A stretch of DNA of 64,000 nt from Chloroflexota bacterium (GCA_009840135.1 VXOH01000020.1:30202-94201); one strand, 5' to 3'; shown: positions 43,021-50,269, numbered from the stretch's first letter. Numbers and translations are program-made. The notes: generated from the sequence alone by a model not told the origin.

Positions 43021-43110
43021 TCAGTCCCGGTGGCGGCAGTTGGCGAGATTACCGACCGGGGTGGCCCTGACCCCGGCACGTACGCTGGTCCCTCTTAATA
43101 TGTAAGGAAC

Positions 43111-43437
43111 CTACATGAGGTATCGCTTAATCATCAACCAGATATTGAAGCCGATTACTGCAGCCATCACGGCAAAGACGAAGCCGATTCCGACCTCCTG
43201 CCCGATGAAGACTGTGTCCATAATCATTTCCAGGAAGAGAAACAAGGCCAAGCACCCTAGTCCGACCAGCAGTCCACGGCGAAAGTTACTCTTGCCGCTC
43301 TGTTCCGCCCGACGCTCAATTCGGGTATAGAATTCAGAGGGCAAGTCCGTTTCGGGACCCATCCGGGGCAGGTATTGGGCGCAGGAGCAATGGGTCTGAC
43401 CGGCAACTACCGCAGCCCCACATCGAGGACAATTCAT
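43111..43437 (-). CDS. Zinc-ribbon membrane protein (108 aa)
   Basis: N-terminal MNCPRCGAAVVAGQTHCSCAQ (four Cys of a zinc ribbon), a cytosolic helix containing EFYTRIERRAEQSGKSNFRR, then two hydrophobic helices (LLVGLGCLALFLFLEMIM and VGIGFVFAVMAAVIGFNIWLMI). Last of six co-directional genes after vWA, PP2C and kinase genes, and shares the ribbon with the others. Predicted to hold the zinc-ribbon at the inner face of the membrane. Confidence 0.75.
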   Translation of the reverse strand: MNCPRCGAAVVAGQTHCSCAQYLPRMGPETDLPSEFYTRIERRAEQSGKSNFRRGLLVGLGCLALFLFLEMIMDTVFIGQEVGIGFVFAVMAAVIGFNIWLMIKRYLM

Positions 43438-43453
43438 GCCTTGCCTCCTAATC

Positions 43454-43781
43454 CTATTTGTTACGGCCCCGTATGAGTAGCCAAATATTGAAGCCGCTCA
43501 ACCCTATCATCGCGAGAAAAGCAAGGAAAATGAGCAATGGCCTTGCAAAATCGCTGGTATCAACCGCCGTTTCCAGCACCCAGGAACAGGGCTAGGAAGC
43601 CCAGTCCCAACAGCAGCCCCCGCCGAAAGTTGTCCTTCCCGCTTTTCTCCACTTGGTTCTCCAGCCGGGTGTAGAACTCGCTGGGCATATCTGTGTTCGG
43701 CCGTATCCTTGGCAGGTATTGGCCGCAAGAGCAATGGGTCTGCCCTGATTCTACTTTGGCGCCGCATTGTGGACAGTTCAT
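43454..43781 (-). pseudogene. Frameshifted paralogue of the zinc-ribbon membrane protein
   Basis: From ATG 43781 the sequence MNCPQCGAKVESGQTHCSCG... follows the neighbour at 43111-43437 closely until FLALFLG, where one extra base moves it to an early stop. In the next frame it continues LETAVDTSDF and a second helix with MIGLSGFNIWLLIRGRNK to TAG at 43454. The shift is in GGGTGCTGGA near 43580. It is either a real frameshift, a sequencing error, or programmed slippage. Confidence 0.75.
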
Positions 43782-43807
43782 GATCGTCCAAATCCTTAAT
43801 AGCAAGA

Positions 43808-45016
43808 CTAACTGTGATTCTGCAGGCTTCGAATAATCTCGTTGCTGATATCTTCGTTGGTAAACCCTAGTTCAGCTTCTATGTGCAAGTCCGCTTCGCA
43901 TACATCTACGTGAAGGGCAATGCCGGTACTTGGATAGTGGGTCAGTAGAGCGGTTTCCCGGATAACAACATAACCCTTTGTTCCGCATAGTTCATCTGAA
44001 GAGTATCTCTCCTTGAAGTAGGTGCCGACCAGGTTTACGCCCGCCTCTTTAAGGGCTGTAATGTCATACCTGGTAGCCCCTCTGATCGTGTTGGCTTGTA
44101 CCCAGGGCCCCGGTGGTCCTTCGTAATTCCTTCCAAAGAAAGTTACGTGGCCACCAGACCAGTTCGAAGGTACATTTACGGTATAGTGAGCGCCAGCATG
44201 TCTGGCGTGTCGCAAGACCTTGGACACGCGGGTTGGCACCGGCACAGGCGTAATCGTGGGCGTCGGGGTTGGTAAGGCAATTACTTGGAAAATTGTCTGG
44301 GTTTCGACATTGCCAATCCTAACCACAACAGGGTATAACCCACCGACTAGTCTGGGTACGCTAAAGTTCAGGTACAAGTTACCATTGGAATCGGTGAAGG
44401 GTTTGGGCGAGGGAGTTACGTCAATATACCCTATGCCTAATTGTATGTACACCTGGTCCACCTGAACATTGGCCTGGACCCCGCGGCCATATATGGACAC
44501 TTCGGTGTAAGGGTGCCCGGTACTGGGGGACAGCTCAATCCCACGTGGAATGACCGTGGAAGTCGCTGTTGGGCGGGGCGTTGGTGTTGGTATTGGCAAG
44601 GGTGTAGGTGTCGCCGTAGGCATTGGTGTAGATGTATTCGTAGGCCTGGGTACGGCAGTAGGCGTGGGATTGGGAGTAGGAGAGGCAGTGAGAGTCGGGG
44701 TAGCCGTCGGCATGGGTGTAAACGTAGCTTGGGGAGTCGGCGCGGGCCGGGATTCCTCAGGAACTGCGGTAGGAGTTGGACTAGGGTCAGGAATCACGAC
44801 GGGCACGGCCGCAGTCACCTCCTCTTCCTGAACGAAGCTGCCAAATAGCCAGTTTCCTGCTCCCACCAGCAAAATAATCAATGCAATACCCAAGATGATG
44901 CCATTTCTGCGAGACCTCGAGCGGGCAGGGATCTGAGTAGGGAGAACTCGCGCGCCGCAATAGGCGCAGAAGATCGTGGAGCTGGGAATTACGTTCTGGC
45001 AGCGGGGGCAATTCAT
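43808..45016 (-). CDS. Zinc-ribbon, membrane, Thr/Pro-stalk, TIG-like domain protein
   Basis: 402 residues. Layout: zinc ribbon MNCPRCQNVI...FCAYCG (1-21), basic segment RSRSRRNG, one membrane helix (ILGIALIILLVGAGNWLFG, about 40-60), a Thr/Pro stalk (about 73-158), a TIG/IPT-like beta domain with HPYTEVSIYGRGVQANVQVD and FVVRIGN-type strands, a second short Thr/Pro stretch and a C-terminal domain (about 275-402) containing LKEAGVNLVGTYFKERY and three Cys. The N-terminus would be inside and the rest outside. It is in the vWA-PP2C-kinase operon, so it may be its receptor; that is inference. Confidence 0.78.
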   Translation of the reverse strand: MNCPRCQNVIPSSTIFCAYCGARVLPTQIPARSRSRRNGIILGIALIILLVGAGNWLFGSFVQEEEVTAAVPVVIPDPSPTPTAVPEESRPAPTPQATFTPMPTATPTLTASPTPNPTPTAVPRPTNTSTPMPTATPTPLPIPTPTPRPTATSTVIPRGIELSPSTGHPYTEVSIYGRGVQANVQVDQVYIQLGIGYIDVTPSPKPFTDSNGNLYLNFSVPRLVGGLYPVVVRIGNVETQTIFQVIALPTPTPTITPVPVPTRVSKVLRHARHAGAHYTVNVPSNWSGGHVTFFGRNYEGPPGPWVQANTIRGATRYDITALKEAGVNLVGTYFKERYSSDELCGTKGYVVIRETALLTHYPSTGIALHVDVCEADLHIEAELGFTNEDISNEIIRSLQNHS

Positions 45017-45032
45017 GCCTCAGGGCTGACCT

Positions 45033-46418
45033 CTATCTCACGTTGGTGCCACACCGTATGCAGTAAATGACATTGATTGAGTTTTGAGCCCGGCAATTGG
45101 GGCAGGTTATGGTTCCCTGGCGAGCTTGAGGAGAAACCGACGGCCTTCCGCGCACCGCTGCGGGTTGCCCTGTACTGGCGTGGGCCGTGGTGGAGGCAGT
45201 CTGAGAGAGTCCGCACTGGGGGCAATAGCGGGCATTGGCTGGAATGGACGCCTGACAAGGGCATGTCTTCGCCGAGCTTGAAAGCGGAGCCGTGCAAGAA
45301 TGGTCAACACAGTAGATCAGCCCTTGGTCGTTGTTCCGTCCACATTTGGGACACTTAACCAAGTTGTTGGATGATGCACCGGCCGGCACGGGTTGGGGAC
45401 TCGGCTTGGGAACGGGCGCAGCCTGCTTCTGGAGCATTTCACGATATCCACCGGAATCTGGCACCCCTTGCGCGCCGGTGGTTGGCTGGGTCCGTGGCGG
45501 GGATGAAGCGGCCGGTGCGCCGCGCAGGGCAGTCACCAGATTCGGCACCTGCTCCACTGGTAGCGCACAATACTCTTCGAGCCGAGTTGCCAACGTTTTT
45601 ACCTGCGCGTCGGGGCTTTGCTTCAATGCTTGCAAGCATTTTGAATTCCGAGGGTCGCCGTAATCCTTCTGGGTAAGAAGAAGGTTGTCATCATTGTAGA
45701 ATCGGTCCCATAGGCTTCGATCAGCTTTCAGAGCCAGCAAGCTGAGATAAATCACCAGGGCGGGGAAGTTGTCTATCTGGTGATTGTAGTTGCTGGCTGT
45801 ACGCTGGGGATGCTGGTAGTTCTTGTGCCCAGTCTCCGGGCTGGATTGTCCTTGGAAATCGGGGAGGAAAATGCCGTCGTAGTCCACTAAGCGAATCAGG
45901 CCGTCGGGCCGCACCATAACATTGCCGTGCTGCAGGTCATTGTGGGCGATTTCTAGACCCCGCAAGGTGGCGACGGTGGCAAGCCACCGGGCGGCAACCT
46001 TCGCGATGGCCTCTGGATTGTCTAGATTATTCTGAACGAATTTGTTCAGCGGGTCTCCACTAGCCCAGCCCATCCTGACAATGGGGTACCACCGGCCCTT
46101 CACCAGGATGCCCTGCTCTACGTATCGGAAATCTACAAAGGATTCCGGCAGTACTCCCTGTAAGTAAGTGCTTAACTGCTCGTAACGCTGCTGCTGGTCT
46201 TTGACTTCGCTAGTGAAGCAACGAACAGCAACCTCCCTGTTCCCCGTATTTAATTTGTACACACAGGCGAACTGGCCGCTGGCCACTACCGGCATGCCAG
46301 TGAGTCCTCCCCGGTCATAGACAGCAACTTGGCCATTGGCCAACTCCGTGTTCCCTCGGAAGCAGACGCCGGGGTTCTGTATTGCGTCAGTAAATTCGGT
46401 GGTGCCGGGCCACGGCAT
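45033..46418 (-). CDS. Protein kinase with C-terminal zinc ribbons (TerY-P triad kinase)
   Basis: 461 residues. Kinase-like core about 30-290: the position of the ATP-binding lysine reads EVAVRCFTS (Arg in place of Lys), catalytic loop AHNDLQHGNVMV (HxDxxxxN) and VDYDGI for DFG. After a Pro-rich linker come three Cys clusters: VKCPKCGRN, KTCPCQAS...RYCPQCG and ITCPNCRA...IYCIRCG. The order vWA, PP2C, kinase with zinc ribbons equals the TerY-P triad from comparative genomics, and the YegL-YegK-YegI type. Targets are not known. Confidence 0.85.
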   Translation of the reverse strand: MPWPGTTEFTDAIQNPGVCFRGNTELANGQVAVYDRGGLTGMPVVASGQFACVYKLNTGNREVAVRCFTSEVKDQQQRYEQLSTYLQGVLPESFVDFRYVEQGILVKGRWYPIVRMGWASGDPLNKFVQNNLDNPEAIAKVAARWLATVATLRGLEIAHNDLQHGNVMVRPDGLIRLVDYDGIFLPDFQGQSSPETGHKNYQHPQRTASNYNHQIDNFPALVIYLSLLALKADRSLWDRFYNDDNLLLTQKDYGDPRNSKCLQALKQSPDAQVKTLATRLEEYCALPVEQVPNLVTALRGAPAASSPPRTQPTTGAQGVPDSGGYREMLQKQAAPVPKPSPQPVPAGASSNNLVKCPKCGRNNDQGLIYCVDHSCTAPLSSSAKTCPCQASIPANARYCPQCGLSQTASTTAHASTGQPAAVRGRPSVSPQARQGTITCPNCRAQNSINVIYCIRCGTNVR

Positions 46419-46440
46419 AAATCTAGCTCGTTCAGTAAGT

Positions 46441-47214
46441 CTACCGGATACGGGTTACGACCAAGGTGGTATCGTCATTGCGCATGGAGCCGGCTTGCCG
46501 CTGGGTATTCACCCAACTCTCCCATTGAGCAGGCTCAAGATTCAAGAGAGTGTGCCAGGGCTTTTCTCCGGCGGAGTGCTGGGTCAGAAACCAACCAGCC
46601 AAAGCATCCGACGCCAACATGATCACATCACCTAGTTCGCAGGTCCCCTTTGCCAGTTGGACCCCTTCAGGAAAGACACCATTGTTGGTCGGATTACTGC
46701 ATAGCAAGGCCGGCGTGTTGCCAAACTGGGCAGCGTCATCCAGAGGAAAAGAGAGGAACAACTCATCTCGGCGGACCATGAAAAGGCAACTGTCTCCGAC
46801 AGCGAGGGCACTCCAGTGGAGGACAGGGGAAGATACCAATTTCCGGCGAATGGTTAGTCCCAGAAGGGTCGCCAAGGCACCAGCCCGTGTCTTGGCCTCT
46901 CCATGCCAAGGTATGCGAGACCACGGGATTAAACGGTCCCAGCTTTCCTGGCTGGGGGCCAGCCAAGCCTTCAAATCGCCCATCTCATCGCTGACTAGAT
47001 CCGGTGTCCGCTCAACAAAGTCCCTAGCCAAAATTTGCGCCCAGTCCCGAGAGAAAGCCGACTCGGTGGCACCGTCAGCTAGAGCGAAGCGGGCAGCTTT
47101 CTTTTCGTCACGACCTAACCGAACGGGATAAACCACGCGGCAATCATCTTCGCACTCATCGGGCCTGTTGCCGAACTTGGGAGTTATCAGCCTAAGAGGA
47201 GGAAACAAGTCCAT
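46441..47214 (-). CDS. PP2C-type protein phosphatase (TerY-P triad)
   Basis: 257 residues from ATG 47214 (AGAGGG upstream; the longer frame would overlap the vWA gene). PP2C motifs: FALADGATESAFS (Asp of the metal site), ALAVGDSCLFMVR, IMLASDALAGWFL and the end MRNDDTTLVVTRI (second metal Asp). Expected to reverse the action of the kinase immediately downstream. Ten bases after the vWA stop. Confidence 0.8.
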   Translation of the reverse strand: MDLFPPLRLITPKFGNRPDECEDDCRVVYPVRLGRDEKKAARFALADGATESAFSRDWAQILARDFVERTPDLVSDEMGDLKAWLAPSQESWDRLIPWSRIPWHGEAKTRAGALATLLGLTIRRKLVSSPVLHWSALAVGDSCLFMVRRDELFLSFPLDDAAQFGNTPALLCSNPTNNGVFPEGVQLAKGTCELGDVIMLASDALAGWFLTQHSAGEKPWHTLLNLEPAQWESWVNTQRQAGSMRNDDTTLVVTRIR

Positions 47215-47224
47215 GGGCAACCCT

Positions 47225-48085
47225 CTAGTGCAAGTCAGCGCTGGTGACGCCCCTGGTGCCAATTTCCAGAAATCGCACCAGAGCTTCCAAATTTGCGTTA
47301 AAAACAAATCCACGGGCATTTTCTTCTGCTACTACATCCAACGTAGCGGCCAAGTCCCGAAAGGATGGCGGGAATGTGGAGGACATGCGAAAAAGCTTCA
47401 TCGCATGTTCGTCAGCCAATCCCTCTGGCTGAGCGGGAAACTGGACCGGCATCGCAGCTATGTCAGAGAGGTGAGCATTAAACATCAACGTATTTCCGTC
47501 CGAAGTTCCCAGGCTCATTATCTCTGCCGCAAAGTTCTCGGGGTCTCCGTCCGTTGCCATGCCGTCGGAAATGTTTATTACAATTGGTGGAAAAGCATTG
47601 GGGTGCTGAGAAATCCAGTCACGCAGAGCTACTCCGGCCAAGTCTAAGGCCTCGCACATGGGGGTACCGTATTCCGCATCAGGACGCAGCCATACAGGAA
47701 AGTTTCGAGTAACGTTTACGAGTCCGCCGGCTCCATCACTCTCCCTGACCTCCCGCTCTTCGATCTCGGCAATATCTACAACTTGGCTAATCAGCAAGAA
47801 AGGTTGATCAACGCTTGTCCCTGCAAGTAAGGATTGAATTATAGAACCTCCCTGCTGATCTGTCTTATAACCTAGTGCTCCAATATGGAAGTAGTCCCGA
47901 ACATCCATACCTTGCGAACAGCGCTGGGAAATGGCGTTCAAGGTTCGATTCAGAGAATCCGCCGCCTGGTCCATCTTACGCATACCGGGCTGGCCGCCTA
48001 GGGCCTGGGTCATTGATCCGGACTGGTCAATAAGAAAGAGGAAGCAGCCTGGGTTGGTACGGCTAATATCTGCCGAGTAGGGCAT
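47225..48085 (-). CDS. von Willebrand A-domain protein (TerY-like)
   Basis: 286 residues. MIDAS motif FLFLIDQSGSM at Asp20, the Thr site in YGTPMCEALD, and NISDGMATDGDP. The fold binds a divalent metal and partner acidic residues. First gene of the six-gene operon; AAGGGGGT lies before its ATG. It would act as the scaffold or substrate of the kinase/phosphatase pair. Confidence 0.85.
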   Translation of the reverse strand: MPYSADISRTNPGCFLFLIDQSGSMTQALGGQPGMRKMDQAADSLNRTLNAISQRCSQGMDVRDYFHIGALGYKTDQQGGSIIQSLLAGTSVDQPFLLISQVVDIAEIEEREVRESDGAGGLVNVTRNFPVWLRPDAEYGTPMCEALDLAGVALRDWISQHPNAFPPIVINISDGMATDGDPENFAAEIMSLGTSDGNTLMFNAHLSDIAAMPVQFPAQPEGLADEHAMKLFRMSSTFPPSFRDLAATLDVVAEENARGFVFNANLEALVRFLEIGTRGVTSADLH

Positions 48086-48243
48086 TTGATGTACCCCCTT
48101 GCAATTGCGTGACGGGTTGTTCTAGTCCCCATGCGGACCGTGCGTTAGCTTAAACCGTCAAGCCTCGTATTGCAAGGTTTCAGTCTTATCTAAAATGACA
48201 TGAACAAGTATGCCCAGGAAAGGGCAGTCAGGTTGGCAGACCC

Positions 48244-49497: not shown

Positions 49498-50202
49498 TCA
49501 GGGAGCTTCCCGGCGGCGCAGTTCCGCTTCCAGTTCCTGAACGCGGGCCTCGGCGGAGGCGGCGCGTCCTTCGGCAGCTATTCGGGCTTCGGCTTCTTCC
49601 TCGTGGGTCTCAAGGTAGCGCCCGGATTCAGGGATACGCCACCGAAGTCTTCCGTTTTCCCAGCAAACATCCAGGCCCAGGGCGTCGCTACGGCCCGACA
49701 TGTGGCCCTCGGCGGACTGCTGGACTCCAATGGGCTGATAGGCGCCATCCACCAAGCGGTCGCCGGCCAACGGCGCATCATACCACCGCCCCCCGGTGGG
49801 GTCGAAACGCCAGTATTCGAGAATGCCGAAGGCGGCGTAGTCCTCCCGCTTCTGGGTGTAGTCATTGCGGGTGGTGGTGGGCGAAGCTACCTCCAGCACA
49901 AAGTCCGGAGGCTTGCTGTGTTCCTCGATGGAGTAGCCGTTGCGGGAGATAGCCGCTGCCGGGTCTATATTGAATGCCACGAGCAGGTCCGGTATGCGGG
50001 CGTAGCGGCTGGGATACCAGTAAACGGGAATCTCTCCAAAAACCAGGGTGGTGTCCCGGTGGCCCAGGTGCCGCGCCAGGGCGACCAGATAACTGGGCTG
50101 GTAGAGATACAATATATTCTGCATATCGTCCCTGGGTGGAAAATCGGGAAACTGCTCAAGCCTGTCCGGCCGGTCAGTTTGCATTGTCAGCTTGCTGGTC
50201 AT
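49498..50202 (-). CDS. Uma2-family protein with C-terminal coiled coil
   Basis: 234 residues from ATG 50202. The Uma2 core: VFGEIPVYWYPSRYARIPDL, the strand PPDFVLEVASPTTTRND (acid pair), KREDYAAFGILEYWRFDP and a C-terminal GLDVCWENGRLRWRIPE. Then a helix rich in Glu, Ala and Arg (EEAEARIAAEGRAASAEARV) as in many cyanobacterial and chloroflexal Uma2 proteins. Nuclease activity is inferred from the fold. Confidence 0.87.
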   Translation of the reverse strand: MTSKLTMQTDRPDRLEQFPDFPPRDDMQNILYLYQPSYLVALARHLGHRDTTLVFGEIPVYWYPSRYARIPDLLVAFNIDPAAAISRNGYSIEEHSKPPDFVLEVASPTTTRNDYTQKREDYAAFGILEYWRFDPTGGRWYDAPLAGDRLVDGAYQPIGVQQSAEGHMSGRSDALGLDVCWENGRLRWRIPESGRYLETHEEEAEARIAAEGRAASAEARVQELEAELRRREAP

Positions 50203-50269
50203 AGCGTTTCTCTCAGGCCCAGGTGATTGCAAGGGAACCGAGTTCAGAGTGACTCGGGCAAATTCTCCT

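Follow-up and report, generated by a model that had tools for sequence, protein, structure and literature searches.

Six co-directional genes of a Chloroflexota bacterium, at positions 43111-48085 on the minus strand of the window (the whole 64,000-nucleotide stretch of DNA that was analysed), encode a TerY-P triad followed by zinc-ribbon membrane proteins, and on balance they are best read as a membrane-coupled TerY-P module, a split transmembrane receptor-kinase system. The triad and its surface protein probably listen to the cell exterior, because the cytoplasmic end of the surface protein carries a zinc finger of the type found on the kinase and because a relative fuses both into one chain. 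More tentative is the general proposal of a split receptor-kinase architecture in which zinc-ribbon pairing links TerY-P kinases to surface receptors that can be exchanged. If this were true, exchanging nothing but the ribbon-tagged receptor, be it TIG/PsbP-like, an HtrA-like protease or another type, would suffice to direct one phospho-switch at new extracellular inputs. TerY-P triads are widespread and tied to phage defence and stress; a fused or ribbon-partnered lineage offers a testable proposal for their input and extends a system hitherto described mainly as cytoplasmic by receptor components.

The TerY-P triad and its kinase

The genes run in the order vWA, PP2C, kinase, ribbon/TM/stalk/TIG protein and two small ribbon/two-TM genes, with intergenic gaps of 10, 22, 16, 26 and 16 nt. 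No RNA elements were found in the region, and candidate promoters and terminators were in no excess over shuffled sequence. The first gene (47225..48085; this and all following window genes and domains lie on the minus strand) encodes a TerY-like vWA protein of 286 aa that contains the MIDAS motif DQSGS and matches the PADLOC TerY profile over positions 1-273 of 277 (E 7.8e-79). The adjacent gene (46441..47214) encodes a PP2C phosphatase of 257 aa, with the metal motifs ADGAT and NDDTT that include the metal-binding Asp (PADLOC PP2C 5.6e-32; Pfam PP2C_2 3.7e-5). The third gene (45033-46418) encodes a Ser/Thr kinase of the TerY-P family, whose kinase domain (45525..46418; PADLOC STK_OB 6.7e-72, model positions 1-297) is followed by three C-terminal zinc ribbons (45033..45365; Pfam Zn_Ribbon_1 1.3e-10, DZR 1.1e-8). 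These matches bear out the preliminary description of a vWA protein, a PP2C and a three-ribbon kinase, and genes 1-3 are a TerY-P triad.

The STK_OB match ends at model position 297 of 562 and leaves the OB half unmatched, since the tail of this kinase consists of three zinc ribbons and not of an OB fold. Such ribbons are rare in the genome, with 17 Zn_Ribbon_1 matches in all 3.45 Mb. By alignment the kinase retains the catalytic loop HND..N (HNDLQHGN) and the DYDG motif (LVDYDG). In place of the canonical beta-3 Lys stands Arg66 (46221-46223), which is invariant in ten aligned family members, and the catalytic activity of the kinase is therefore not certain; the TerY-P literature searched does not count the beta-3 Lys among the defining features of these kinases. 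The best PDB sequence matches to a profile of the kinase family are the WNK ('no lysine') kinases, perhaps by chance. The window kinase chain has no TM helix, a PknB-type feature that is present in relatives.

The membrane partner and its outside domains

The fourth gene (43808..45016) encodes the partner protein of 402 aa, which is composed of a ribbon, a TM helix, a stalk, a TIG domain, a further stalk and a C-terminal domain. The N-terminal zinc ribbon MNCPRCQNVIPSSTIFCAYCGA (44942..45016; Zn_Ribbon_1 2.9e-4) is common to the partners of four other genomes (G007, G019, G026 and G016), and in four genera the N-termini conform to the pattern M[NKR]C..CQ..[IV]P.[ST]V/I.FCAYCG. It is followed by a single TM helix (44843..44899), identified by hydropathy and preceded by RSRSRR, so oriented that the N-terminus is inside with the Arg-rich ribbon side, and then by a Thr/Pro stalk (44546..44791). 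The TIG/Ig-like domain (44279..44545) scores below the Pfam cut-off (E 0.16). The AlphaFold2 model of the ectodomain shows a confident Ig sandwich over residues 1-88 (pLDDT ~95), for which Foldseek retrieved Ig folds with the CAMTA1 TIG domain among the matches. With 31-43% identity to the TIG repeats of surface proteins, the domain has a TIG fold and is homologous to those repeats; the TIG domains of these genomes reside mostly in large surface proteins.

The ribbon/TM/stalk/TIG architecture reported earlier thus stands, but that account overlooked the C-terminal domain (residues ~264-402; 43811..44209), which unlike TIG is common to relatives and is 59% identical to the copy in G007. In the G019 partner the C-terminal domain gives a model of pLDDT 90 that matches PsbP, LpqN, DcrB and Mog1 with TM-scores of ~0.6-0.75, those to PsbP, LpqN and Mog1 being ~0.7, whereas in the window only the TIG half of the ectodomain is modelled confidently and the C-terminal domain is a low-confidence part of the AlphaFold2 model. 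The profile-profile match of the window domain to its PsbP-like relatives is weak (hhalign P 0.005); in a blind search with a profile of these relatives it ranked first of ~912 ORFs, with the G007 copy near the top. The C-terminal ectodomain of the window is therefore graded as probably PsbP/Mog1-like. The PsbP-like domain family of the partners has two invariant Cys, which fits an exported domain. In other Chloroflexota the PsbP-like domain is also joined to an apparently secreted metallopeptidase-like domain with no triad nearby (L234-L236).

As a conserved hallmark of such loci the TIG domain is not supported: a TIG partner was found at no triad locus examined other than the window. The ectodomain of the ribbon-TM partner varies between loci, and among partners and fusions it includes TIG, the PsbP fold, Trypsin_2 (~1e-32) and RCC1 (2e-26). 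HtrA-like trypsin domains with intact-looking catalytic motifs occur outside the membrane on ribbon-TM proteins (L020 13358-15139, L018 13404-14555).

The two small genes complete the operon. The strand, order and gaps given in the preliminary description are correct, but the fifth gene (43454..43781) is not one open frame. An extra G in a GGG at ~43579-43581 breaks the frame of this zinc-ribbon/two-TM gene and truncates the product to 73 residues; the 3' part, which holds the second TM region, runs on in another frame, and the remaining frame is conserved with respect to its paralogue. The frameshift is either a recent mutation or an assembly error. The sixth gene (43111..43437) encodes an intact zinc-ribbon/two-TM protein of 108 aa, of which a 60% identical homologue follows the partner gene of G007. 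An MNCPxC start was earlier ascribed to three of four proteins downstream of the kinase; only three such proteins exist and all three begin in this way. Strong matches to the small ribbon/two-TM protein occur only in triad-bearing genomes (three of three, where 8 of the 59 genomes have TerY). In G013 a stand-alone ribbon/two-TM homologue lies between eno (enolase) and gap (GAPDH) (L055 1483-1854) and not near the triad. The genome of the window itself harbours clusters of several small zinc-ribbon membrane genes, RDD-like and other, on C88 and C155 (L230, L231) with no triad adjoining.

Relatives, fusions and the pairing of ribbon-tailed kinases with ribbon-TM proteins

TerY was detected in 8 of 59 sampled relatives and in one of the five genomes of the genus, and the TerY-P set is present in 8 of the 50 genomes of the family. 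Immediately behind the triad kinase, four further genomes from three genera (G007, G019, G026 and G016) encode counterparts of the partner, so that the ribbon-membrane gene beside the triad, which the preliminary description proposed to look for elsewhere, is not peculiar to the window. G007, of another genus, has the same flanks and the order nadA, TerY, PP2C, ribbon-tailed kinase, ribbon-TM-stalk protein and one ribbon/two-TM gene, which is the window order minus one duplicate; its partner has no TIG domain. In each of G019, G026 and G016 the gene after the ribbon-tailed kinase likewise encodes a ribbon-TM-stalk protein, whose ectodomain is PsbP-like, an HtrA-like trypsin or a combination of the two; the G026 contig stops within the gene. 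G013 encodes a single chain of 744 aa, counted from the conserved start, in which the kinase is joined to two ribbons, a TM helix, a stalk and an ectodomain of its own. A second fusion, of 1101 aa, joins a TerY-P kinase to a TM helix and RCC1 repeats (G030; L021 9873-13178), and the tails of other close kinases end with one or several TM helices. TerY is tandemly duplicated in G019 and G026 (L016, L018), an arrangement also known from some Type III-A CoCoNuT operons, and G019 has a second, divergent TerY (L022).

A kinase-alignment scan of 84,980 genomes yielded 79 loci from many phyla, in most of which TerY and PP2C lie just upstream of the kinase. Four more loci of the family bring the set to 83 kinase loci, with a few loci of one genome counted twice. 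Five of the 83 belong to the ribbon-tailed class, defined as having a tail with three or more CxxC motifs and no TM helix, and in all five a protein that starts with a ribbon and continues with a TM helix is encoded within 25 nt downstream. Among the other kinases such a protein follows in none of 78 (Fisher 3.4e-8); this value was computed post hoc and overstates independence, because all five loci with the ribbon-tail/partner state come from a single family and are related to one another, two as a clade. Tails elsewhere read from sequence as TM plus coiled coil plus helix-hairpin-helix-like, OB-like, TPR-like, SH3-like, or TM plus stalk. Another 29 TerY loci from the phylum showed neither a ribbon tail nor a ribbon partner, and triad order is retained in most of the 79 and 29 loci. 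The ribbon-partner variant therefore seems to be limited to a single family of Dehalococcoidia/SAR202-like Chloroflexota. Since triads without a ribbon partner exist (OB-tailed antiphage TerY-P and the 78 loci), the partner is specific to this variant and not a property of TerY-P generally. In the kinase tree the window joins G007 (100/99), and the ribbon kinase of G019 joins a TM-tailed paralogue encoded beside it (89/79). More than one change of the kinase tail is therefore probable, but support for the deep branches is weak.

The nadA-infC junction

In four genomes of the same genus (G001-G004) infC directly follows nadA with ~220-310 nt between them, as compared to 5.4 kb in the window. 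Similarity of the window to these empty sites breaks off close to the nadA stop and is regained at about 43022, upstream of infC, so that the missing block spans 43022..48243. Since the four congeners have the junction without any of the six genes, the latter behave as one unit that comes or goes as a block. The block may have been inserted once and then lost in some genomes, or inserted repeatedly. A chance neighbourhood, in which the triad was inserted beside unrelated ribbon surface genes, could be argued from the occurrence of ribbon-TM proteins elsewhere in the genome, but it is very improbable and largely refuted by the recurrence of this arrangement in four further genomes, in three of which it occupies a different chromosomal site, by the natural fusion and by the empty site that lacks all six genes at once.

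The neighbours of the block are the housekeeping genes nadA, infC and pheST, and no defence system other than the triad and no mobile element was seen at the site; the flanks thus give no support to a defence island. A gene for a putative endonuclease of the Uma2 family (49498-50232) adjoins nadA. These surroundings bear on a less probable reading of the module as antiphage TerY-P defence, in which the ribbon membrane proteins, above all the small two-helix ones, would be anchors or membrane-acting effectors that the kinase switch sets free, while the domain outside the membrane would either be incidental or sense phage at the cell surface. A defence role is possible by analogy, because TerY-P-like triads, including the OB type, defend against phage (Gao 2020, cited in PMC11090510) and protection against Autographiviridae has been shown (PMC10889362); the patchy presence, in one of five congeners and 8 of 50 genomes of the family, and the duplicated and varying membrane parts would also fit. 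Against this reading, besides the housekeeping setting, ectodomain proteins of 340-600 aa would be unusual as effectors, and a TerY-P-bearing population is protected even at high phage dose with most cells surviving (PMC10889362).

Proposed mode of action

As a split receptor-kinase system, the module would employ a soluble ribbon-tailed kinase without the membrane anchor of many relatives, a role that a separate one-pass ribbon protein would fill. Outside the membrane this protein has a Thr/Pro stalk and domains that can be exchanged, in the window TIG and a probable PsbP-like domain, which may sense a ligand or the state of the envelope. The signal would pass from outside to inside, with the ribbon end of the partner holding or controlling the kinase via the kinase ribbons. 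The kinase might then act on TerY and/or the ribbon membrane proteins, PP2C would reset this action and the metal-dependent vWA protein could relay the state by binding a target.

Kinase and partner are perhaps joined by ribbon pairing, yet the ribbons might bind nucleic acid and not each other. It has been proposed that the ribbon of TerY-P kinases binds nucleic acid, because OB-folds take its place, and a metal-sensing proposal is cited alongside (PMC11090510). By extension the ribbons here could be unpaired nucleic-acid or metal sensors, the partner being co-expressed since its ribbon answers the same metal or redox signal. This is less probable, as the ribbon of the partner is the cytoplasmic end of a membrane protein and relatives swap ribbon and partner for a TM helix of their own or a direct fusion, which fits coupling better than parallel sensing.

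Comparison with known systems

The TerY-P triad consists of a TerY vWA protein, a PP2C and a Ser/Thr kinase with a C-terminal zinc ribbon (Anantharaman 2012, via PMC11090510). The window shares the three genes, their order and the zinc-ribbon kinase tail, but adds the ribbon-TM-ectodomain protein and the ribbon/two-TM proteins and has no adjoining CoCoNuT or tellurite genes. All three window proteins also strongly match the profiles of the antiphage TerY-P with an OB-fold kinase (Gao 2020; PADLOC STK_OB), whereas the window kinase ends in zinc ribbons and not in an OB fold. In actinobacterial GAP1-N2 systems, kinases linked to PP2C and vWA genes carry zinc ribbons, beta-rich domains or TM helices as fusions (PMC7159879), and membrane-linked forms are therefore not without precedent; the window has no GTPase core, and there the connection to the membrane is made by a ribbon protein of its own that has a large ectodomain.

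The zinc-ribbon kinase tail has thus already been described, and what is new here is the coupling of the triad to a ribbon-TM partner. A limited search of the open literature found no separate ribbon receptor with exchangeable ectodomains. The way the module would work can be likened to receptor kinases of the PknB/PASTA type, which couple a cytoplasmic kinase to a sensor outside the cell and have a PP2C as counterpart. The window set is not a member of this group: its receptor and kinase are separate chains, and both the kinase family and the ectodomains differ.
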